Assembly (NCBI GenBank): GCA_016215105.1
Contig: JACRLJ010000019.1
Location: 1 to 39,506, forward strand
Direction of reading: 5' to 3'
DNA: 39,506 bases
Source: Candidatus Hydrogenedentota bacterium
GTDB taxonomy: Bacteria > Hydrogenedentota > Hydrogenedentia > Hydrogenedentales > SLHB01
Shown here: one piece after another, positions 15,005-27,612 of the stretch
Position numbering within the stretch: the first letter of the stretch is position 1
Layout of the letters: every line of letters starts with the position of its first letter
Notes under the pieces: model-generated
What the model saw: only the letters and a program-made list of their open reading frames with translations
Databases searched by the model: none
Told to the model about the DNA's origin: nothing
Made by a program: the position numbers and the translations under genes

Positions 15005-15032
15005 TTGACGCGCTCCCGTGGGTCGGTAAATG
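15005..15032 (+). promoter_or_regulatory. Possible promoter for the GH2 gene
   Basis: TTGACG at 15005-15010 and TAAATG at 15027-15032 are 16 bp apart, about 50 bp before the GH2 start. The -35 box is good and the -10 box only fair. Confidence 0.35.
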
Positions 15033-15083
15033 GTATGCTGCGGTCTGTTATGGCGAAGCTGGCGGGACGCGGGGAGAACACGA

Positions 15084-18000
15084 ATGGACGAACGCGGCAT
15101 TGAATCATTCTCGCAGGTCGGCATATTGCTGCTGGCCATAGGTCTGTTCCTGCTACCGGGACGCGCCATCGCGGCGCCAAGACCCGAGACCGCGCTTTCG
15201 CAGATGCCCGCCGGTTACAGATTACAAGCCTACGACGATTGCGGCGTACAAGGACGCCAGCCCCACGCGCCGAGCGACCGAAAGGCTGTGTTCGCCAAAG
15301 AACAGGTCGAGGGCGACGAACGGCAGCGGAGCGTTACCTTCGGCGTCCCGCATTTCGACATGGTGTACGAGAATCTGAACTCTGCCGTCCCCTGCGCGCT
15401 TGCGATCACCTACGCCAGCGAACGCGGCAACCGGCGCGTGCAAAGCCTATTCGCGGGGAAGGTCCTGCTCCATGGTCCGCGCGTCCTGCCGGACGGCAAG
15501 ACCGAGCGGCTACTGTTCTCTGTCCCGCCAGATGCAATCGAGAATGGCCGTCTCATACTTCACTTCGAATGCAACGAAGGCCCCAACGCCGTCGTGTCCA
15601 TCGTCGAACTGTGGGCGCCGCTCCCCGCGCAGAAGGCTCTCCACCTTAGTCTCGTTCCGCACCCAGACGGCAGGCTCGAGGGTCACATATCAAACATCGC
15701 ATTCGACGGTATCGGTCCGGCGGAAATCGCGCTTCGGGTATCCACCGGAGCCTGGGAAAGCAGGACGGCCACTACCAAAGACGGTACGTTTGCGGTGAAT
15801 CTGTCGGAACGCGTCAAGCCCGGCGAGGAGGGCACTGTGGACGTAACGGCAACGTTTGAGGGAGCATCGGCCAACGCTTCGGCAGCGTTGACGGACCTCT
15901 ACTTCATTCCGCCAAACTTTGTTCCGATTCCATTGAAGACGCCCGGCCTCGCGCGAGCAACTATCTCGATGGACGGCGTATGGCGCATCAATCCCAAGCC
16001 TGGCGCCGCGTTTGCCACCGAGCCCACGGACGGCGCGGCTTGGTCGGATTTTCACGTGCCCGGCCAGTTCCTGCAGCAGGGGTTTGACGTCCCGCGCGAG
16101 AAACCCGTGACGCTTGCGACGGATTTCGTGGCGCCCGCATCGTGGCGAGACCGGCGGGTTTTCCTCCGCTTCGATGCAGTTCACGGCGGCGTCGATTACT
16201 GGCTGAACGGTAAACGTCTGGGCTACAGCGAAAACCTGTTCACGCCGGTCGAGTTTGATATCACGGACAGCGTCCGAGTCGGAGAAAGCAACCACTTGGC
16301 GCTCTCGGTCAATGTGGAGACGGCTTCGGAGCTCGCATCCTTCAGCTCCAATTACGCGTTCCACAGCCTAGGTGGCGTCGACCGTTCGGTTCACGTTTTC
16401 GCTCTTCCCAGCGTCCACATCGCCGAGCTGCGGCACGAAGTCACCCTCGATGCGCAGTACAAAGATGCGATACTGACCGTCGATCTGCTCGTCGCCAACA
16501 AAAGGAATCAAAAGACGGAGCCGCTGTCCGTTGAGTTGAGCCTGATTGGCGCGGATGGCCGCGTGGTCCCGCTCGATGGGACGCGGCGCAAACTGGCGTG
16601 CATCGAGCGCGGTGAACAACACCTCGACTTCGAAATCCCCGTCCCCAGCCCCCTGCTCTGGAACGCCGAGCGCCCAAACCTGTACACGCTGCGGGCCGAA
16701 CTCCGAAGCGCAGGAAAACTGTTGGAGCGTGTCGAACGGAGTATCGGATTCCGTGTCATTGAGACACGCAACGGACAGCTCTTGATCAATGGGAAGTCCG
16801 TCAAACTCGCCGGCATCAATCGGCACGAGATTGATCCGCTCACCGGCCGGGCCGCAACCGCCAAACACGGCGAGGAAGACGCGCGCCTGCTCAAGGAGGC
16901 GAACTACAACTTCGTCCGCACATCGCATTATCCGCCGACGCAAGAATTCCTCGATGCGTGCGACCGCCTCGGTCTGTATGTCGAGTGCGAAGCCCCCTTC
17001 TGCTGGACGCGCACCGGCCGAGGCGAGGACGACCCCGCACTCACGAAGTCATTCCTGACGCCCACCGCGGCGATGTTGGCCTACCACCGCGCGCACCCAT
17101 CCATCATTGTCTGGTCGCTGGCCAATGAGTCCGGCCAAGGACCCGACGGCGAGAACGCGCTTCCGTCGAACTTCGCCGCCACGCGCGCGTTCTGCAAACA
17201 TCAGGACCCGTCGCGGCCGCTGCTCTTCAACAACGAATGGGCCCGAGAAGGCGGCGCTTGCGATATCGCCGTACTCCACTACCCGCCATTTCCGCCGGAG
17301 CAGTACAAATACGTGAAAGATGACCCGCGGCCGATTTTGATTGACGAATACTTCCCGCCGCAGACCTTCACCTTCGCCGACGAGTTGTACCTCAATCCCG
17401 GCCTCGATGTCGTGAATTGGTCGACGGGACAGAACAGCCCCACTTCGTACTGGAACCAGATATACCAATCCAAGAATATCGTTGGCGGCTCGATCTGGGC
17501 CGGCATCGACGAGGAGTTTATCTTCAAGGACGGTAAAACGCTCGGCTACGGGCCCTGGGGATTTCTCGACGTGTGGCGCAGGAAGAAGAGCCTGTGGTGG
17601 GACACAAAGCTCATCCATTCGCCGATTTGGATTCCGATCCGCCGTATCGAGGTTCCGGCGGACCAATCTGCGGTATCGATTCCTGTCGAGAACCGCTATT
17701 CGTTCACCAATCTGAGCGAACTCAAAACAACATGGGAACTCGGGAACCGACGCGGCGCCTGCCGCCTCGACATTCCGCCGCAGACCGCGGGCGCTATCGC
17801 AGTGCCCGTTTCAAAGAACCTGGCCCCCGGTTCACTTCTCGTATTACGTTTCTTCGACACGAAAGGGACGCTGGTCACGGCGCACGGCATTACATTCGGC
17901 GCGCCAACGCTGGTCACACCGCCAAAGCCTTCAGCAGGCTGTCCCAACTGGCATGACAACGGAAAGACAATCGTCGTGCGCGGAAAAGAGTTCGATTTCG

Positions 18001-18740
18001 AGCTAGACAAATCGACCGGCGCCCTCAGCCAGAGTTCGCCTGGCCTCAAGCGCTTCCCGACCCTGTTCGCGACGCGCCGGGAGGATAAGAACGCGTTCAA
18101 CCCGAATGGGCTGCCGTACGCGCAGTATCCCGACGCGGCCACGCGGGTGATTGACGCAGTGACTGCCGAGGCGTGCGCCGAGGGACTTTGCATCATCCTC
18201 CGCGACCACTACAAGGACTTCAGCGGCGCGGTCAAAATGGTGTTGGACAACGACGGCCAGCTTTCCTCGTCCTTTGACTACACCTACTCGGGTCAGGCCT
18301 TCAACGTGAGCGAACTGGGTCTCCGCTTTCTAGTGGACGAACGCTACCACGAAATTCGGTGGCGGCGCCTCACCGAGTGGGACGTGTATCCCACAGACCA
18401 CATCGGTCGCCCGCAGGGAACTGCGCTCGCGTACCACACGAAGACGAGCGCGCCGTTTCCGCCCTATCACGAACCGCCCAAGCACGCGTGGTACCTGGAC
18501 GCCAACGAATACGGCACGCGCGACTTCCGTTGCACAAAGTACAACATCCTCGAGGCGCAATTGCTCGCACACGACCGTACCGGCATCCGCGTGGATTCCG
18601 ACGGCTCGGCCAACGTCCGCGCCTGCCTCGCGCCGGACGGCGTACAGTTTCATTTGCTGCTCTCGGCGCCGCCCGCGCAACTCACGCCCGGTTGCAAGTT
18701 TTCGGGAAACTTCTCAGCGCGGCTTTGCGGGCGTTCTTAG
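15084..18740 (+). CDS. Exported glycoside hydrolase family 2 beta-galactosidase-type enzyme
   Basis: The start at ATG 15084 has GGGGAGAA 7 bp upstream and gives 1218 residues with a clear signal peptide (hydrophobic core VGILLLAIGLFLL, end RAIAA). About 270 extra residues precede the GH2 core. From about residue 290 the sugar-binding domain, immunoglobulin-like domain and TIM barrel follow, with the GINRHEID signature near 575-582, acid/base Glu682 in WSLANESGQG, and nucleophile Glu755 in ILIDEYF. The 73-residue gap between the two glutamates is close to that in E. coli LacZ. A C-terminal bgal-small-chain-like beta-sandwich ends the protein. It acts outside the cytoplasm on beta-galactosides or related glycans. 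Confidence 0.92.
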   Translation: MDERGIESFSQVGILLLAIGLFLLPGRAIAAPRPETALSQMPAGYRLQAYDDCGVQGRQPHAPSDRKAVFAKEQVEGDERQRSVTFGVPHFDMVYENLNSAVPCALAITYASERGNRRVQSLFAGKVLLHGPRVLPDGKTERLLFSVPPDAIENGRLILHFECNEGPNAVVSIVELWAPLPAQKALHLSLVPHPDGRLEGHISNIAFDGIGPAEIALRVSTGAWESRTATTKDGTFAVNLSERVKPGEEGTVDVTATFEGASANASAALTDLYFIPPNFVPIPLKTPGLARATISMDGVWRINPKPGAAFATEPTDGAAWSDFHVPGQFLQQGFDVPREKPVTLATDFVAPASWRDRRVFLRFDAVHGGVDYWLNGKRLGYSENLFTPVEFDITDSVRVGESNHLALSVNVETASELASFSSNYAFHSLGGVDRSVHVFALPSVHIAELRHEVTLDAQYKDAILTVDLLVANKRNQKTEPLSVELSLIGADGRVVPLDGTRRKLACIERGEQHLDFEIPVPSPLLWNAERPNLYTLRAELRSAGKLLERVERSIGFRVIETRNGQLLINGKSVKLAGINRHEIDPLTGRAATAKHGEEDARLLKEANYNFVRTSHYPPTQEFLDACDRLGLYVECEAPFCWTRTGRGEDDPALTKSFLTPTAAMLAYHRAHPSIIVWSLANESGQGPDGENALPSNFAATRAFCKHQDPSRPLLFNNEWAREGGACDIAVLHYPPFPPEQYKYVKDDPRPILIDEYFPPQTFTFADELYLNPGLDVVNWSTGQNSPTSYWNQIYQSKNIVGGSIWAGIDEEFIFKDGKTLGYGPWGFLDVWRRKKSLWWDTKLIHSPIWIPIRRIEVPADQSAVSIPVENRYSFTNLSELKTTWELGNRRGACRLDIPPQTAGAIAVPVSKNLAPGSLLVLRFFDTKGTLVTAHGITFGAPTLVTPPKPSAGCPNWHDNGKTIVVRGKEFDFELDKSTGALSQSSPGLKRFPTLFATRREDKNAFNPNGLPYAQYPDAATRVIDAVTAEACAEGLCIILRDHYKDFSGAVKMVLDNDGQLSSSFDYTYSGQAFNVSELGLRFLVDERYHEIRWRRLTEWDVYPTDHIGRPQGTALAYHTKTSAPFPPYHEPPKHAWYLDANEYGTRDFRCTKYNILEAQLLAHDRTGIRVDSDGSANVRACLAPDGVQFHLLLSAPPAQLTPGCKFSGNFSARLCGRS

Positions 18741-18798: not shown

Positions 18799-19065
18799 AT
18801 GACCTCGACCAGTAAAGGCGCTCCGAAAGCCGCGGACCCTCGCTTCGTCAGCACGCACTGGACCGTCGTGCTGTCGGCCTGCGCCCCAGGTTCACCGCAC
18901 GCGGCCGCGGCGCTGGAGTCGCTCTGCCGCGCGTATTGGTATCCCCTCTACGCCTATGTTCGCAGACGAGGACACACGACGGCCGACGCGCAGGACTTGA
19001 CGCAGGAATTCTTCGCGCAATTGCTCGAACACAACTGGATCGCGCGCGGTTGTCCCCCAATGTAG
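18799..19065 (+). pseudogene. Truncated ECF-type RNA polymerase sigma factor (N-terminus only)
   Basis: A good AAGGAG site precedes ATG 18799. The product begins like the large ECF sigma group of planctomycete-type bacteria: RFVSTHWTVVLSA, LCRAYWYPLYAYVRRRGH, and the sigma region 2 segment DAQDLTQEFFAQLLEHNW. After about residue 82 similarity stops abruptly and the frame closes at 88 residues, where about 200 would be expected. Region 4, which contacts the -35 box, is absent. The remaining part was not found in the following 740 bp in any frame by eye, so the gene was probably cut by a rearrangement with a breakpoint near 19045. Confidence 0.8.
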
Positions 19066-19805: not shown

Positions 19806-19833
19806 TTGACATCTACTGTGTTTACAGTATATC
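19806..19833 (+). promoter_or_regulatory. Promoter of the blaI-M56 operon
   Basis: Consensus TTGACA at 19806-19811 and TATATC at 19828-19833 are 16 bp apart. A BlaI-type operator fills the spacer, and a second one covers the region just downstream of the -10 box. Confidence 0.7.
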
Positions 19834-19851
19834 CTACTGCAAGCACAGTAG
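19814..19851. promoter_or_regulatory. Two phased BlaI-type operators
   Basis: TACTG-N6-CAGTA occurs at 19814-19829 and again at 19835-19850. Both are perfect dyads, and their centres lie 21 bp apart, about two helical turns, so two repressor dimers would sit on the same DNA face. Binding would cover the promoter spacer and the start site, implying autorepression of the operon. The assignment is inferred from position and symmetry. Confidence 0.75.
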
Positions 19852-19865
19852 AAGGAGACCGCATC

Positions 19866-20267
19866 GTGCGCGCCAAGCAGCCCTCGAAATTGGAAATGGC
19901 TATTCTCAGCCTCTTGTGGGAACACGGCGGCATGACCTCGCGCGAAGTGTTGGACGCGTTGCCCGACGGCAAGCAGCGGGCATACACGTCGGTGTTGTCC
20001 GTGTTGCAGGTGATGGAGCGCAAGAAGCTGGTGCGCCACACACGACGCGGCAACACCAACGTGTATCATGCCGTGGCCGCGCAGACGGCCACGTTGGGCG
20101 GCGCGCTTCGCGACATGGTGCGCGACATGTTTGGTGGGTCGCCTGCCGCGGCGGTGCAGCGCTTGTTGAGCGAGGGTAAAGTGTCCGAAGCGGAGCTTAC
20201 GGAAGTGGAGAAGCTCATCGCCAGCCTCCGCAAACAGCAGGGGCGCCGCGACGAGGGCAAGCCATGA
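19866..20267 (+). CDS. BlaI/MecI/CopY-family transcriptional repressor
   Basis: The start is GTG 19866, 7 bp after AGAAGGAGA, giving 133 residues. The winged helix covers KLEMAILSLLWEHGGMTSREVLDAL, QRAYTSVLSVLQVMERKKLV and GNTNVYHA. The C-terminal dimerisation part includes RDMFGGSPAAAVQRLL, the region in which BlaI proteins are cut by their partner protease. Repression of its own operon through the two upstream dyads is expected, with relief when the M56 sensor is activated. The stop overlaps the sensor start as ATGA, so the two are translationally coupled. The inducing signal need not be a beta-lactam. Confidence 0.93.
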   Translation: MRAKQPSKLEMAILSLLWEHGGMTSREVLDALPDGKQRAYTSVLSVLQVMERKKLVRHTRRGNTNVYHAVAAQTATLGGALRDMVRDMFGGSPAAAVQRLLSEGKVSEAELTEVEKLIASLRKQQGRRDEGKP

Positions 20268-23200
20268 ACCAATTCATTTACCTGCCCGGCGCCGCGATCG
20301 AGCATCTGCCCGCTGCGTTGATGCACAGCCTCTGGCAAGGTCTGCTCGTGACGCTGTTGGTTTTCCTGCTCTTGCGCCGCATACCGGTCACGCGTCCGGA
20401 CCTTCGGTACGGCGTGGCGGTGGCCGGATTGTTGGGCGTCGTGCTTGCGCTATTGCTGACGTGGTCCGTTCTCGAACACCCGCTCAAAGCCGAGAACGCG
20501 CCCGCAGTGGCTGCGTCCACCCCGTCCACCTCGTCCACCTCGTCCACCGCCCCCACCGCGTCCACCGCGTCCACTCCGTCCACTCCGTCCACCGCGTCCA
20601 CTCCGTCCACCGCGTCCACTCCGTCCACCCCGTCCACTCCGTCCACCCCGTCCACCCCATCTGCATCCGACTATCTCCTGCGCGTATGGCTCGCCGGCGC
20701 AGCGCTGATGCTGTTGCGGGTGCTCCGGCTCACGCGCGGGACACGACGCTTGCGCCGGCGCTGCCGGGTCCTGGACGACCCGCGGATATGCGAACTGCTG
20801 GACAACATCAAAACGGTGATGGGGATTTCCCGCCGCGTAGCCATATTGGTTGCCGATGGTCTGGCCTCGCCGGTCGCGATGGGACTGCTTTGGCCCGCCG
20901 TGGCGCTGCCCGCCTCCATGGTCACTGGCTTGTCGCCGGACCAACTCCGCGCGGTGCTCGCCCACGAACTCGCCCACATCCGCCGCTACGACTACCTGGT
21001 CAATTTCGTCCAACTGGTTATCGAGGCGGTCCTGTACTTCAACCCCGCCGTGTGGTGGTTGAGCCGTCAGATCCGCATCGAGCGCGAGGCCTGTTGCGAC
21101 GCGTTGGCCGCGCGGGTAACCGGCGGCGCCGTGGATTACGCCGCCGCCCTGGCGCAGGTCGCGCGCGGTCTCCAAACGCCGCCGCTGCCGACCCTGGCCC
21201 AGACATTCGGCGCGGAACGAGGCCCCGGCGGACTCCTCGACCGGACGCGCCGCCTGCTCCTGCCCGGCTACTGGCCCAAGCTCCGCCTGCACTGGTACAG
21301 CCTCGCCCTCGGCGCGCTCATCACCCTCGCCATGCTTCTCGGCCTCTTCCAAAGCTCCGTGATGAGCGTCGCGTTCATGGGTTGGCTCCTATCCGACAAG
21401 GAACGCATCCAGGTCATGTCGCACTTGGCACAAGAGTACAACCCTCCATCAGAACCGGCGGACCACGACAAGCGTGAGCAGGTCGAGGTATCGGGTGTGC
21501 TGATCACGACCGATGGAAAGCCCTTGCCTATATCCGGCGACAAAACAAACCTCTTCGCAATTGTACAAAGCGCAGACTCTCACTGCACGTACTCCTCATC
21601 CGTATGCCCTGATCTCAATGGCAACCGCTTCCGCGTGCGCTTTACGAAGGGCGATATCTACGTCTTCGCCGAGTTTCCCGGATACGAACCAGTCAGCGTC
21701 GGACCGCTGCATGGAGACAGACAGCATCCAGTCAAGGATGTCGAGATTCGTCTTGAGCCCTGTCAGCCGGCCACTATTCGCTTCGTAGACGTGAATGGCG
21801 CGCCCATTCCCGGCGCAAAGGTTGAGGGGTTCTACAGATTCCTACCCAATGCGGGATTCCGGACGCTCCGCCTGCACTCCGATGAGCGGGGAAGGGTTCA
21901 AATCGATCAGGCCCAGAAACCAGTACCAGTCCACTTCGAGGTGAAGGCCGCGGGCTATCAGTACGCCCGCAACCAACAGCTTATTGTCAAAGCGGGCGAA
22001 ACCTTCGATTGGGTGTTGCAGCCAGACGAACCCCTCGACGTACTCATCGTGGATAAGACAAACGGCGCCCCAATCGTCGGCGCGGAGGTGGCTCTGGCGT
22101 ATGAGCGAGGTAGAGACTTTCCAAATAATGGCGAGGGCGAACTCCTGGCCACGTCTGGTAGCGATGGACGCGCAACGTTGCGTGGATTGAACCGGAATCA
22201 ATTCTACGCGTTCCTCGTTCGCGCGCACGGCTTCGGAACAGAACTGGCGCTTAACCCCCATGGCACAGACACGCACTGGAAGGTGGCGATGGGACCACGG
22301 TACGTTCGCGGAACGATTCGAGGCGATCTCGCCCTGCTCAAACAGGGTAAAGACCACTCGGGACCGATCATCACAAGCAGCATGATGTTGTTCATTCCCG
22401 GGGAAAGCAGTAGTTGCGGGGTTGGGGCAGACGAAACGCCGGTTTCAGTGAGCGAAGGCGTGGGCTCGTTCACGATTGAGGACTTGCGCGCCGGTGAACT
22501 CTGCATCAATGCCGGGCCGGAACAAATTCAGATTCCTGTGAGTGAACCCGTCGAGAACTTGGAAATCACCGTGGGCGCGGTCAGGAAAAAAGCGGAACGC
22601 ACCCTCGTTATCGATCTTCCCGCGCCCAAAGGAGCGCCGCCGGCAACAGGCATCGTAACGGTTCGACTTGTCGACAACCCGGCGCAGTCTGATTCGGACA
22701 AACGCGCCGTCGACGTTGTGGAGGGCCGAGCGCAAACATCGATCCCGGTCCCCGCGCGAGTCATGATTTACGCCGACGGACTGCCTGGTTATATTCCGAA
22801 ACCGCTGGCCAGAGAAGATAGGGAAAAGGTAAGTCTAGGTTGGGAAATCCCGGAAGGCGCGGAGCCTTTCGTGATCACGCTGCCGCTCGATCGGGCTGGC
22901 GCGATCTATGGAAAGGTGCTCCGGTGGGATGGGAGTCCCGCGTCCAACGCCCACATCAATGTGCTCACATCTCAATCTGGAGAGGCCCCTCAGTGGCCCT
23001 ATGACTACTTGTGTCCCAACGTCACGAACTTCAACTGTAACCAACAAGGCGAATTCGCGCTGCTGCCTCTGCCGTTAAATATGACTTTCGACGTCTTTGC
23101 TTCCTTGGATTTCGCTCGAGACGAGAAACAGTTCAAACTCGCTGCCTGGAAACCCATCGTCCGCGAACAATTCCAACTTCCGCAAGGGACAGACGCCACG

Positions 23201-23746
23201 GTCCGAGTGCTCAAACCCGATGGAAGCCCCGCGCAGGAAACCCCGCTTGTTATTGAGACCGCGAGCGCCGGATATTCGGGCCTGCGCACCGACAGTGAAG
23301 GTCTCTTTGTGCTCCACGGCGTGAACCCGCGCCAGGAATGGTGGGTATCGGTAGATTCAGACGTATCGTTCCAACACACTCGGGTAAAGTTGTCCATGGA
23401 CGGAAACGAAACCGTCGTTCGCTTGGTTGCCGGGCTGCACGTCGAGGGCGTCGTGCTCGTATCTGGAACGAACGCGCCAGTTCCGAACCATTCCATTTCC
23501 GCCCTCGCTAGATCCGATTCCGGGCTACCGCAGCAGCCCAGATACGAAGTCAAGACCATAACGGACCATGAGGGCAAGTTTCGCTTCACCAACCTCGCTC
23601 CAGGCGCCTACACCATCAACGCCGATCCCATACGGAACATATCGGACGATACGACGGAACAGGCCAGAACCTTCACCGCCGCACAAAAGGCGCCTGTGGT
23701 CATCCACGTCCGCCCTGCGAACCCGCCCGTTTTCGCGACGCATTAA
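20264..23746 (+). CDS. M56 (BlaR1-like) membrane metalloprotease sensor with carboxypeptidase-regulatory-like repeats
   Basis: The 1160-residue protein has membrane segments near 22-39, 50-70, 137-155 and 347-375. Between the third and fourth lies the M56 protease domain with zinc motif HELAH at 234-238 and the third ligand in the RIEREACCDA segment (Glu273 or Glu275). After the last membrane segment there are about 780 residues of repeated beta-sandwich domains of the carboxypeptidase-regulatory/Cna-B kind (for example GVLITTDGKPLP, VNGAPIPGAKV, RWDGSPASNAH, TNLAPGAYTI). There is no penicillin-binding SxxK/SxN/KTG domain, so the ligand is not an obvious beta-lactam. Residues 85-132 are a Ser-Thr-Pro array. 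It presumably cleaves the adjacent BlaI-type repressor upon sensing an extracytoplasmic signal. Confidence 0.88.
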   Translation: MNQFIYLPGAAIEHLPAALMHSLWQGLLVTLLVFLLLRRIPVTRPDLRYGVAVAGLLGVVLALLLTWSVLEHPLKAENAPAVAASTPSTSSTSSTAPTASTASTPSTPSTASTPSTASTPSTPSTPSTPSTPSASDYLLRVWLAGAALMLLRVLRLTRGTRRLRRRCRVLDDPRICELLDNIKTVMGISRRVAILVADGLASPVAMGLLWPAVALPASMVTGLSPDQLRAVLAHELAHIRRYDYLVNFVQLVIEAVLYFNPAVWWLSRQIRIEREACCDALAARVTGGAVDYAAALAQVARGLQTPPLPTLAQTFGAERGPGGLLDRTRRLLLPGYWPKLRLHWYSLALGALITLAMLLGLFQSSVMSVAFMGWLLSDKERIQVMSHLAQEYNPPSEPADHDKREQVEVSGVLITTDGKPLPISGDKTNLFAIVQSADSHCTYSSSVCPDLNGNRFRVRFTKGDIYVFAEFPGYEPVSVGPLHGDRQHPVKDVEIRLEPCQPATIRFVDVNGAPIPGAKVEGFYRFLPNAGFRTLRLHSDERGRVQIDQAQKPVPVHFEVKAAGYQYARNQQLIVKAGETFDWVLQPDEPLDVLIVDKTNGAPIVGAEVALAYERGRDFPNNGEGELLATSGSDGRATLRGLNRNQFYAFLVRAHGFGTELALNPHGTDTHWKVAMGPRYVRGTIRGDLALLKQGKDHSGPIITSSMMLFIPGESSSCGVGADETPVSVSEGVGSFTIEDLRAGELCINAGPEQIQIPVSEPVENLEITVGAVRKKAERTLVIDLPAPKGAPPATGIVTVRLVDNPAQSDSDKRAVDVVEGRAQTSIPVPARVMIYADGLPGYIPKPLAREDREKVSLGWEIPEGAEPFVITLPLDRAGAIYGKVLRWDGSPASNAHINVLTSQSGEAPQWPYDYLCPNVTNFNCNQQGEFALLPLPLNMTFDVFASLDFARDEKQFKLAAWKPIVREQFQLPQGTDATVRVLKPDGSPAQETPLVIETASAGYSGLRTDSEGLFVLHGVNPRQEWWVSVDSDVSFQHTRVKLSMDGNETVVRLVAGLHVEGVVLVSGTNAPVPNHSISALARSDSGLPQQPRYEVKTITDHEGKFRFTNLAPGAYTINADPIRNISDDTTEQARTFTAAQKAPVVIHVRPANPPVFATH
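20516..20659 (+). repeat. 16-unit 9-bp minisatellite encoding Ser-Thr-Pro/Ala/Ser
   Basis: Sixteen uninterrupted 9-bp units of the form TCCACNNCG lie in frame within the M56 gene. Unit variants (TCCACTCCG, TCCACCGCG, TCCACCCCG) alternate, as expected from slippage or unequal exchange. The peptide lies between the second and third membrane segments. Confidence 0.95.
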
Positions 23747-23846
23747 GGAATCGATTTTGCGCGCTGTCGTTACACGTCGGAGAAAGATACTTCGCGACTG
23801 CGCCTCAGGACGCACTCAAGCAAGTGCCAGTCCAGGCGCTCCGACC

Positions 23847-23866
23847 GGCGGATGAGGACATCCGCC
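23847..23866. other. Perfect 8-bp hairpin after the M56 gene
   Basis: GGCGGATG at 23847-23854 pairs with CATCCGCC at 23859-23866 around AGGA. There is no T-run after it, so it is either a weak terminator for the blaI-M56 operon or a REP-like palindrome. The remainder of 23747-23959 holds no gene. Confidence 0.5.
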
Positions 23867-23959
23867 CTCCCAAACGCGCAGGTCGCATAGCGGTGGATGG
23901 ATTTAATTGAATCTAATCCGCTTGAAACCACACCACCCTCCAATACACACTAGCGGGAG

Positions 23960-24637
23960 ATGGACCTAAGCCCCGATCTCATTCCGTTCGATCATGTGCC
24001 GAAGCTGACCGAGCTGTCCGCTTCCGGCGCAAACGCCGCCGTCGCCGCGGCAGTGGCGGTCGGAACCCTGTACTGTTTCCTCGGCTACCGCGTCCTCAAG
24101 TTTATTATCGGCCTGACCGGCTTCATCCTGGCCGGCGCCTCGGCCGCGTTCCTTGCAGGCTGGCTCAGCCAAGGCAATCCGATCGCGATGGCGGCCGGCG
24201 CGGTGTTGGGCGGGCTCGCGGGGGCCATGGCCCTCTTCTTCCTCTATCACGTTGGCATCTTCAGTCTGGGACTGCTGGCCGGAATTCTGATCGCGTTCAA
24301 CGTCCTCGCCGACAGCGTCGAACCGTGGGCGCCGTGGGCCATCCTGGGCGCGGGCGCGGCGGGCGGGCTCGTGGCCCTTCTCATCGAACGCCCCGTCATC
24401 CCCATCGCGACCGGCGCGCTCGGCGCGTGGATGGTCGTCTGCGGCATTGCCCACTTCCTGCTCGGCCCGGATTTCCTCACCGCACTTCGCGGCCCGCTTC
24501 AGTTCGGCGAAACCCGCTGGTATATCGTTGTCAGTTGGGCAGTCCTCGCTGTCGCGGGCACACTGGCCCAATTCGCGACCTACAGGCGTCCGCGCACCGA
24601 GATTAAAGAAGTTGTAGTGCGGGAGGTCGAGCGTTAA
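23960..24637 (+). CDS. Polytopic membrane protein, DUF4203/TMEM198-like
   Basis: The 225-residue protein has about seven hydrophobic segments rich in Gly and Ala (for example FIIGLTGFILAGASAAF, AILGAGAAGGLVALLIE). The glycine-zipper spacing and the alternating pattern resemble the DUF4203/TMEM198 group, whose function is not established. A short charged cytoplasmic tail (RRPRTEIKEVVVREVER) ends it. GGGAG directly abuts ATG 23960, which is poor spacing, but no better start was seen nearby. It stands between two small hairpins and is probably transcribed on its own. Confidence 0.7.
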   Translation: MDLSPDLIPFDHVPKLTELSASGANAAVAAAVAVGTLYCFLGYRVLKFIIGLTGFILAGASAAFLAGWLSQGNPIAMAAGAVLGGLAGAMALFFLYHVGIFSLGLLAGILIAFNVLADSVEPWAPWAILGAGAAGGLVALLIERPVIPIATGALGAWMVVCGIAHFLLGPDFLTALRGPLQFGETRWYIVVSWAVLAVAGTLAQFATYRRPRTEIKEVVVREVER

Positions 24638-24719: not shown

Positions 24720-24783
24720 GAAGAATCGTGCTCGCGGCGCAGTGCTCAGAACAACGTTTTACACCCGCAGGGAGACGCGTTTC

Positions 24784-26334
24784 ATGCTCAATTTGGCAAG
24801 CGTACTCGAAGACAGCGCGAAGGAATATCCCGACAAGACAGCCGTCGTATTTCGGGAATATCGTATGAGCTTTGCGATGATAAACGCCTTCGCGTGCCAG
24901 ATCGCGCATATGCTGCGCGAGGCCGGCGTCGAGCGGGGCGACAAAGTCGCGCTCTGCTGCCCCAACATCCCCTACTTCCCGATGGCTTACTACGGGATAC
25001 TCAAGACCGGCGCCGTGGTCGTCCCGCTCAACGTGCTCTACAAGCGCCGGGAAATCGAGTACAACCTCGCCGATGCGGACGCTAAGGCGTTTCTATGCTT
25101 TGAAGGCACGCCACACTTGCCGTTGCTGGAGCACGCCTGGCCGGCATTCAACGACACGCCCACATGCGAGAAAATGTGGGTCATCGCTGCGAGCCCGTCC
25201 GGCCCCTCCCCTCTTCCCGGAATTCCCACGATGCAAGAGGATATGAGCGGACGCCCAACCAACTTCGACACCGTGCAGACCGACCCCGATGATACCGCGG
25301 TCATCCTCTACACTTCAGGCACGACCGGACATCCCAAGGGCGCCGAGTTGACACACTCGAATCTCGTGATGAACGCAATCGTATCTCGAGACCTGAGCCA
25401 CGGCACGCCGGACGACATCCAGTTGGTGGCGCTTCCGCTCTTTCACTCGTTTGGACAGACCTCGCAGATGAACGCCGGCTTTCTTGGCGGATGCACGTTG
25501 GTCCTGCTGCCGCGCTTCGAAGCCACCGAGGTCCTCGAGGCCATGCAGAACGAGAGCGTCACCATTTTTTGCGGGGTGCCCACGATGTACTGGGAATTGT
25601 TGCATCAGGCCGGCGCCGGAAATCACGACATCGAAAAGATCGGCAAACACTTGCGCCTGGGCGTGTCGGGCGGCGCCGCCATGCCGGTCGAATTGTTGCG
25701 GCAATTCGAGGAGAAGTTTAAGGTGACGATCCTCGAAGGGTACGGCTTGTCGGAGACGTCGCCCACCGCGACGTTCAACCGCATGGATCGCCCCCGGAAA
25801 GTAGGCTCCATCGGTTTACCGGTGTGGGGCGTCGAGATGCGTGTCGTGGACGATGACATGAATGACGCGCCCGCCGACACGCCGGGTGAAATTGTCATTC
25901 GCGGACATAACGTGATGAAGGCGTACTATCAGAATCCCACCGCCACCGAGGAAGCGTTTCGAGGCGGTTGGTTTCACACCGGAGACATCGGAAAGAAAGA
26001 CTCGGACGGGTACTTCTATATCGTGGATCGCTCAAAGGACATGATTATCCGCGGCGGATTCAACGTCTACCCGCGCGAGGTCGAAGAAACGTTGATGACA
26101 CATCCGAAAATCTCGCTGGCGGCCGTGATCGGCGTGCCGCATGACGAGTACGGCGAAGAAGTGAAGGCGTTCATCGTCCCGAAGGAAGGCGCCAGCGTTA
26201 CTCCGGACGAAATCATCGCCTGGGCAAAGAAGGAAATGGCCGGATTCAAGTACCCGCGCTGCGTCGAGATTCGCTCGTCACTGCCAATGGGCGCGACGGG
26301 AAAGATTCTGAAAACCGAATTGCGCCGCCACTAG
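24784..26334 (+). CDS. Long-chain fatty-acid-CoA ligase-type AMP-forming synthetase
   Basis: The 516-residue protein starts at ATG 24784 with GGGAG 8-9 bp upstream. An in-frame ATG at 24742 exists but would add an arginine-rich extension. It belongs to the adenylate-forming superfamily: phosphate loop YTSGTTGHPKGAE, GYGLSETSP, hinge segment GWFHTGDIG, DRSKDMIIRGGFNVYPREVE, and the catalytic C-terminal Lys in ATGKILKTEL. These enzymes activate a carboxylic acid as acyl-AMP and transfer it to CoA in the cytosol. The long-chain assignment comes from overall resemblance; medium-chain acids are possible. The fucosidase gene starts 18 bp after its stop. Confidence 0.88.
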   Translation: MLNLASVLEDSAKEYPDKTAVVFREYRMSFAMINAFACQIAHMLREAGVERGDKVALCCPNIPYFPMAYYGILKTGAVVVPLNVLYKRREIEYNLADADAKAFLCFEGTPHLPLLEHAWPAFNDTPTCEKMWVIAASPSGPSPLPGIPTMQEDMSGRPTNFDTVQTDPDDTAVILYTSGTTGHPKGAELTHSNLVMNAIVSRDLSHGTPDDIQLVALPLFHSFGQTSQMNAGFLGGCTLVLLPRFEATEVLEAMQNESVTIFCGVPTMYWELLHQAGAGNHDIEKIGKHLRLGVSGGAAMPVELLRQFEEKFKVTILEGYGLSETSPTATFNRMDRPRKVGSIGLPVWGVEMRVVDDDMNDAPADTPGEIVIRGHNVMKAYYQNPTATEEAFRGGWFHTGDIGKKDSDGYFYIVDRSKDMIIRGGFNVYPREVEETLMTHPKISLAAVIGVPHDEYGEEVKAFIVPKEGASVTPDEIIAWAKKEMAGFKYPRCVEIRSSLPMGATGKILKTELRRH

Positions 26335-26352
26335 AATTACAAGGAGACACAG

Positions 26353-27612
26353 ATGCCAGAGAAAACCTTGACATACACGCAACGGATGAAGTGGTTTCAC
26401 GAGGCGCGGTTCGGAATGTTCATTCACTGGGGACTCTACTCACTCACGGAGCGCGGCGAATGGACCATGTTCGTGGAACGCATCCCCAAGAAGGATTATG
26501 CGAAACTCGCGAATCAATTCAACCCACGCAAGTTTGACGCTGATGCCTGGGCGGGGCTTGCCGCCGAAGCCGGGATGAAATACGTGGTGCTCACGACGCG
26601 CCACCATGATGGCTTCTGCCTGTTCGACAGCCAGGCCTCGGATTTCACGTCCGTGAAAACCCGCGCCAAACGGGATTTCGTCGCCGAATATGTGGCGGCA
26701 GTGCGCCGCGCCGGACTCAAAGTCGGATTCTACTACTCGCTGCTCGATTGGCGATTCCCCGGCTACTTCATGCCCGACAAACACCCCGAAAGCAAGGAAG
26801 CCATGGTGCAGCAGTACCACGCTCAGGTGAAAGAACTGATGTCCAACTACGGCAAGATCGACGTGCTCTGGTATGACGGACATTGGATGCCCAACTTTGT
26901 GGAGGGCGTAGATCTGCCGGCGTTCTGGCGCTCCGCCGAGGTCAACGCCATGGCGCGCAGCCTTCAGCCCCACATCCTCATCAACAACCGCTCCGGAATC
27001 GACGAAGACCTCGATACCCCGGAGCAGCACGTTACCGCCTCAAAAGCAGGCCGCGGTTGGGAGTCGTGCATGACCATGGGCGACTCCTGCGGCTGGGGAT
27101 ACATTCGCAACAACCCCAATATGAAAACCGAACCCCAGTTGCTCCAGCACCTCGTTACCGCGGCGGCGGGCGAAGGAAATCTCCTGCTCAATGTCGGCCC
27201 GAAACCCGATGGTTCGATCCGTGGCCGTGAACGAAAGCGCCTCAAGGCCATGGGAAAATGGATGAAAGTCAACGGCGAGGCCATCTACGGTTCCGAACGG
27301 TGTCCGCTCAGCGGCGGCATGCTGGGTTTGTGGACTGGGAAAGGCAAGACCGGATACTTCCACATCTTCCGCTGGCCCGGCGAAACCGCCGTCGTTCCGC
27401 TCGTCAAAACCAAAGCGGTCTCAGCAACGCTGCTGGCCACCGGCAAGAAAGTCCGCATCAAACAAGAGTACAACGGACGCCTGGTCCTGACCGGGCTGCC
27501 AAAAGACCCGCCCGATCCAAATGCGGCGGTCATCAAGATCGAGTTTGCGAGCAAGCCCCAGCCGATGGTGGAAGAAGACCGCGCGGCGTGGCTCGACGGA
27601 AAAGCGAAGTAA
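26353..27612 (+). CDS. GH29 alpha-L-fucosidase, apparently cytoplasmic
   Basis: The 419-residue protein starts at ATG 26353 behind AAGGAGA. It begins directly with the GH29 barrel (MKWFHEARFGMFIHWGLYSL), has HHDGF at 84-88, and the likely nucleophile Asp175 in VLWYDGHW. The C-terminal part is a short beta domain. It retains the stereochemistry and releases alpha-linked L-fucose. The acid/base residue varies in this family and could not be fixed by eye. No signal peptide is present, unlike the GH2 and GH42-like enzymes in this window, so it probably acts on imported oligosaccharides. It is cotranscribed with the acyl-CoA ligase upstream and the HAD phosphatase 21 bp downstream. Confidence 0.9.
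   Translation: MPEKTLTYTQRMKWFHEARFGMFIHWGLYSLTERGEWTMFVERIPKKDYAKLANQFNPRKFDADAWAGLAAEAGMKYVVLTTRHHDGFCLFDSQASDFTSVKTRAKRDFVAEYVAAVRRAGLKVGFYYSLLDWRFPGYFMPDKHPESKEAMVQQYHAQVKELMSNYGKIDVLWYDGHWMPNFVEGVDLPAFWRSAEVNAMARSLQPHILINNRSGIDEDLDTPEQHVTASKAGRGWESCMTMGDSCGWGYIRNNPNMKTEPQLLQHLVTAAAGEGNLLLNVGPKPDGSIRGRERKRLKAMGKWMKVNGEAIYGSERCPLSGGMLGLWTGKGKTGYFHIFRWPGETAVVPLVKTKAVSATLLATGKKVRIKQEYNGRLVLTGLPKDPPDPNAAVIKIEFASKPQPMVEEDRAAWLDGKAK

Follow-up and report, generated by a model that had tools for sequence, protein, structure and literature searches.

Introduction

BlaR1 and its repressor BlaI are best known for raising the alarm at beta-lactams. In this study we examined a related pair of genes in a stretch of 39,506 nucleotides from a Candidatus Hydrogenedentota bacterium (assembly GCA_016215105.1, contig JACRLJ010000019.1, positions 1 to 39,506 of the forward strand), the whole of which we call the window. 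In this pair, a BlaI/MecI-type repressor gene adjoins the gene of an M56 protease with a long tail of carboxypeptidase-regulatory domains. On balance, we favor the idea that the window pair is a self-contained, self-regulating, envelope-sensing antirepressor switch.

BlaR1 is described as having HExxH and ExxxD motifs and an N-out/C-out topology, and as cutting BlaI directly between N101 and F102 (PMC9834060). Like BlaR1-BlaI and MecR1-MecI of Staphylococcus aureus, the window pair combines a predicted four-helix M56 protease bearing HExxH and ExxxD with an adjoining BlaI/MecI-type repressor gene, and has paired palindromic operators at its promoter. Unlike BlaR1 and MecR1, the window protein has no penicillin-binding domain and instead has a tail of transthyretin/CnaB-like sandwiches. 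The repressor also differs from S. aureus BlaI and MecI in its operator, which is TACTG-N6-CAGTA rather than TACA/TGTA, and in having R-L rather than N-F at the aligned cleavage place. Among the relatives we surveyed, the BlaI/MecI family as a whole shows several operator words.

Other described members of the family respond to other signals or form paralogous sets. In the cyanobacterial PetP-PetR system, a BlaR-type membrane protease is reported to control a CopY/BlaI-type repressor in response to copper, not a beta-lactam (PMC10141476). The window pair is similar in having a BlaR-type protease and a BlaI-family repressor, a likeness of description and not of sequence. The reported targets of PetP-PetR are petE and petJ (PMC10141476), whereas exact operators for the window pair occur only at the pair itself. 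Clostridium thermocellum has two paralogs, BlaI_0696 and BlaI_1845, with the different inverted-repeat words GTCTAT and GACTAT; as reported, these provide an experimental precedent for self-regulation with a very small regulon (PMC8457756). The genome studied here likewise has paralogous repressors with differing words, predicted self-regulation and very small predicted regulons, but it holds 11 repressors rather than two and uses other words, and the authors of that report read theirs as beta-lactam systems (PMC8457756). The CopY/CopR copper repressors are described as often having two operators per promoter and as having a metal-binding CXC C-terminus (PMC7253601). The window repressor belongs to the same family and also has two operators at its promoter; unlike CopY/CopR, it scores 35 bits with the CopY_TcrY model, below the cut-off of 122.

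Results

The repressor and the protease core

The genome examined is a 6.68 Mb draft of 171 contigs, in which the window is contig C166. The repressor gene (19866..20267, + strand) encodes 133 amino acids from a GTG start, including the recognition helix RAYTSVLSVLQVM, and its stop codon overlaps the ATG of the protease gene (20264..23746, + strand; 1160 amino acids, delimited by its open reading frame and by Pfam). The mechanical open reading frame of the repressor begins at TTG 19617; because homologs align from GTG 19866, the latter is the likely start. The repressor matched PF03965 (Penicillinase_R) with E 1.1e-22 and 81 bits against a cut-off of 22.6, and its family profile matched the structures of MecI and BlaI.

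The protease matched Peptidase_M56 (PF05569) over residues 28-305 with E 2.5e-36 and 125.8 bits against a cut-off of 31. These two matches bear out a preliminary description of this DNA, which had recognized an M56 core and a coupled BlaI-type repressor. The HELAH zinc motif lies at residues 234-238 (20963..20977, + strand), and an ExxxD motif that would supply the third zinc ligand, as in BlaR1 (PMC9834060), lies at residues 275-279 (21086..21100, + strand). H234, E235, H238, D243, E275, D279 and Y292 are unchanged in an alignment of seven full-length relatives and, judged by this alignment, the zinc site is intact. The solved protease found by sequence was BlaR1 (8exp), over residues 141-280 with E 0.019, and the NCBIfam model blaR1_generic matched residues 135-280 of the core only, with 88 bits against a cut-off of 400.

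Hydropathy and charge place a Ser/Thr/Pro-rich linker between predicted transmembrane helices 2 and 3. It is encoded by a 9-bp tandem repeat of 16.1 copies (20514..20658, + strand), found by repeat detection; the linkers of the seven aligned relatives are rich in Ser, Thr, Ala and Pro and are without this repeat. There is an excess of positive charge in the predicted cytoplasmic loops and none in the N-terminus or the linker. We infer a four-helix, N-out/C-out protease with its zinc site in the cytoplasm and its tail outside it. A role in anti-phage defense was rejected, as neither the protease nor the repressor had a PADLOC match at 0.001.

The sensor tail

The tail comprises about 789 residues (372-1160; 21377..23743, + strand), delimited by Pfam, a structural model and structural matches. 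Pfam placed CarboxypepD_reg (PF13620) on four stretches of it, with E 4.9e-27 and 94.5 bits against a cut-off of 32.3. The model, made from a seven-sequence alignment, had a mean predicted local distance difference test score (pLDDT) of 74 and a predicted template modeling score (pTM) of 0.44, and is nearly all beta apart from a juxtamembrane helix. After this helix come about eight predicted beta-sandwiches, a count read by eye off the strand list. The best structural match of the tail was a transthyretin-like domain of carboxypeptidase D (5aq0_B; Z 11.9 over 79 residues, 1.9 Å); such domains matched at Z 11.9 and 11.4, and CnaB-type pilin domains were also among the matches. The preliminary description had proposed that about 780 residues of Cna-B/carboxypeptidase-regulatory sandwiches replace the penicillin-binding domain, and the Pfam matches, the beta-rich model and the transthyretin-like and CnaB folds all agree with this.

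That description had also said that a transpeptidase-like SxxK domain in the C-terminal part would overturn it. The tail has a single SxxK, SGDK at residue 424, which lies outside any recognized transpeptidase domain. Pfam listed no transpeptidase family for the protease at E<=1, and no transpeptidase fold was among the structural matches of the tail shown.

Promoter, operators and regulon

Consensus scans predicted a sigma-70-type promoter upstream of the repressor gene (19806..19833, + strand), with TTGACA at 19806-19811 and TATATC at 19828-19833. Two exact TACTG-N6-CAGTA palindromes overlap it. Operator 1, TACTGTGTTTACAGTA (19814..19829, + strand), lies within the promoter spacer, and the same word is found at the same place in relatives. 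Operator 2, TACTGCAAGCACAGTA (19835..19850, + strand), lies directly 3' of the -10 hexamer, 21 bp from operator 1. With up to one mismatch allowed, the window holds three sites; 100 shuffles averaged 0.19, and no shuffle had as many as three. These operators are more than chance.

Genome-wide counts were made for three patterns, TACTG-N6-CAGTA, TACTRW-N4-WYAGTA and GACTAY-N4-RTAGTC; the search for other words covered 238,192 bases of the genome. There is no third exact copy of the window word in the 6.68 Mb. Since exact sites occur only at its own promoter, the exact-site regulon would be the operon itself. One-mismatch sites numbered 67, fewer than the 231 found for a control in which the pattern was read backwards, and without an excess over this control we rejected them as a source of further regulon members. 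The preliminary description had proposed such a search to define the regulon; the exact search answers this in part, with the pair's own promoter, and the one-mismatch sites leave room for degenerate targets. The TACTA/G-type family, TACTRW-N4-WYAGTA, had five sites, three of them at own promoters (one in C166, two in the pair C168) and two elsewhere (C18:1436, inside a reading frame, and C30:51695). Both sites of GACTAY-N4-RTAGTC are at own promoters.

Eleven pairs in one genome

The genome holds 11 M56 genes and 11 BlaI genes, all of them paired, and at each of the 11 promoters a palindrome overlaps a TTGAC[A/T] promoter. The tails are of at least seven kinds and the operator words number about nine, mostly private to their own promoters. 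The window pair (C166) combines a CarboxypepD_reg tail with the half-site TACTGT. The other combinations are a secretin-like tail with GATTAC (C103b), a Big_5 tail with GCCTAC (C25), LRR tails with GACTAC (C66 and C146) and with ACGAA (C53), a HEAT tail with TACTAA (C168), a HEAT plus CarboxypepD_reg tail with GACTAT (C22), a CsgG/LpoB-like tail with, loosely, ACGAA (C164), and tails with no recognized domain next to CGCGAA (C103a) and TCGCAC (C54). In the 238 kb around the pairs, eight words are present exactly, each solely at its own promoter, and TACGAA, GACGAA, TACTAT and TACGGT have no exact occurrence. The C22 pair (L031) has an M56 protein of 1614 residues that joins HEAT repeats to carboxypeptidase-regulatory domains, and its half-site matches the published word of C. 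thermocellum BlaI_1845 (PMC8457756). Among 60 genomes (this one and relatives), BlaI occurs in 39, with 11 copies in both this genome and G004 and 0 to 8 in the others.

Relatives

Some match to the tail was found in 22 of 40 genomes, and seven, including this one, match over most of it. Tail-length matches come from Sedimentisphaerales, Hydrogenedentota, Verrucomicrobia, Phycisphaerae and Planctomycetaceae, with Planctomycetota included; on these matches the tail architecture is widespread and not unique to this genome. Plasmid-borne relatives were rejected, as tblastn of the tail against plasmids gave no match at 1e-5. In a scan of named genomes that yielded 80 loci, a BlaI gene was within the fetched stretch in 78, the two others being L086 and L105.

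Operators with TACTGT were found in relatives G038, G023, G062, L085, L087, L088 and L115, with TACTAT in G004, G007, G020, G024, L082 and L089, and with TACGGT in G057 and L083. Pfam confirmed CarboxypepD_reg in all four relatives tested (L188, L082, L085, L087), and the HEAT-tailed relatives of C168 kept TACTAA in 3/3 tested by Pfam (L191-L193). A palindrome survey covered 97 repressor genes, among them the 11 found in this genome and close relatives; one of the 97 lacks upstream sequence and one has unknown residues there. In 77 of the 97, a palindrome complete at all five inner arm pairs lay within 150 nt; mononucleotide shuffles gave a mean of 14.9. Promoter and palindrome occurred together in 55 of 96 genes (shuffle mean 11.2). 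One ortholog, L077, fails the strict palindrome rule and shows only a 5-of-6 site. At the Sedimentisphaerales locus L144, an M56 protein frame of 2345 residues is accompanied by two BlaI genes.

Recognition helix and operator base 5

We compared residue 42 of the repressor, which aligns with T44 of MecI, with base 5 of the half-site. In RAYT[S/T] helices with Gln at the eleventh place, Ser42 occurs with G in 12/12 cases and Thr42 with A in 7/7. The scoring used 29 rows. One row (L196) with both G and A half-sites was dropped as mixed, and doubly fetched loci were counted once (L190 = L083, L194 = L082, L197 = L085, L198 = L089, L200 = L088, L204 = L115, L205 = L087). We read the word of each row off its best site by eye, set start codons by a rule and selected the out-of-context rows by hand. 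On a tree built without the helix residues, each trait changes three times and well-supported branches offer two independent pairs, which does not suffice for significance; a previous tree of 21 rows gave two changes and one pair. The cleanest case is a pair of sisters, L195 with Ser and TACTGT and L082 with Thr and TACTAT (support 99/96). With these numbers of changes and pairs, the correlation within the RAYT-plus-Gln context is suggestive only. A general Ser/Thr rule for base 5 was rejected because Ser occurs with A in 5 of the 29 rows, all of them outside that context, such as LAYTSVMT repressors with TACTAA.

Wider BlaI relatives with a GYTT.LK helix mostly have TACGAA-N4-TTCGTA operators (for example among L094, L111, L117 and L147), and a VVYTT.LKTMQ group has TACGAT operators. 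A wider helix-to-operator map is possible.

Neighboring genes

Downstream of the protease, on the same strand, is the gene of a TM198-like membrane protein (23960-24637, + strand). The gap from 23746 to 23960 is 213 bases, with no terminator-like site listed in it. By eye, and on raw open reading frames, no downstream gene was common to 19 loci; the gene following the protease varies from one examined locus to another, and at several loci the frame in that position is on the opposite strand. A gene related to LacZ-type beta-galactosidase lies upstream of the pair (15030-18740). The short, early-stopping frame at 18799-19065 resembles sigma-70 region 2, a weak match under the Pfam cut-off, and looks like a truncated extracytoplasmic function (ECF) sigma factor gene. 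Further downstream are an acyl-CoA ligase gene (24742-26334) and a gene that we take to resemble alpha-L-fucosidase (26353-27612). No beta-lactamase gene was seen beside the pair.

Discussion

In the switch that we favor, a dimer of the BlaI-type repressor would bind the two palindromic operators over its own promoter and keep the two-gene operon off. The BlaR1-type membrane protease would carry its long transthyretin/CnaB-like rod outside the cytoplasm. A cue acting on the rod, or on the Ser/Thr/Pro-rich loop, conjecturally the polymer, surface or mechanical cue that the preliminary description had predicted in place of a beta-lactam, would lead the protease to cut the repressor, by analogy with BlaR1, upon which the operon would switch itself on and more receptor would be made. 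The main product of induction would then be the rod-bearing receptor, and transcription might also run on into the gene at 23960-24637. The lack of a downstream gene common to the 19 loci makes the receptor the probable main product. In relatives, operator word, recognition helix and tail type are conserved jointly, and the words of most of the other ten pairs differ, so that the window pair is probably insulated from its paralogs.

Several observations weigh against this switch or its insulation. R99-L100 of the window repressor stands where the cleavage site N101-F102 of BlaI aligns, and a P1' Phe is described as almost invariant in BlaI (PMC9834060). For the tail-length relative L086, the fetched stretch lacks a BlaI gene. 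The words of C53 and C164 are similar, which makes cross-talk possible, and C66 and C146 share one word. LRR tails occur with two words, and tail type and operator word are imperfectly coupled.

It is unlikely, though it deserves weight, that degenerate or half-site operators bring a larger envelope regulon under the control of the pair, with the exact palindromes being only its strongest, autoregulatory sites. The 65 further one-mismatch sites leave degenerate operators elsewhere possible, and the C. thermocellum BlaI proteins are reported to have bound single half-site probes in gel shifts (PMC8457756). The one-mismatch total, however, is below its backwards control, and one of the two mixed-word sites away from own promoters, C18:1436, sits within a reading frame. 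We regard as less probable still a longer operon in which the protease is only the sensor and induction mainly serves the TM198-like protein, perhaps with the acyl-CoA ligase. The shared strand and the 213-base gap with no terminator-like site listed are consistent with this, but the gene in that place differs between loci and in several lies on the opposite strand. It is very improbable that the tail conceals a diverged penicillin-binding part and that the protein is a beta-lactam receptor, for although the core is BlaR1-like and there is one SxxK, the domain content in Pfam, NCBIfam, the tail model and the fold matches led us to reject this, and sequence and predicted fold, as far as they go, exclude a beta-lactam reading.

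The self-regulating switch may be one of many. A broader and more doubtful proposal is that this genome holds an array of switches insulated from one another, in which tail, recognition helix and private operator word are inherited together as a cassette, and in which residue 42 (Ser or Thr) sets base 5 (G or A) in the carboxypeptidase-regulatory clade. Each switch would mainly control itself, and the tail would therefore be both sensor and payload. If one helix residue sets one operator base, new insulated channels could need very few substitutions. What is new here is the set of paired switches with differing addresses, together with the proposed helix rule; we found no description of these in the open-access literature of PubMed Central, and one may exist elsewhere.

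The same BlaR1/BlaI machine thus appears with very different tails, in up to 11 copies per genome and with different DNA addresses. If the proposal is true, the repressor helix would hold a directly testable specificity rule, the pairs could be a source of orthogonal repressor-operator parts, and M56-BlaI would be a general, multiplying family for signaling from outside the cell to DNA.

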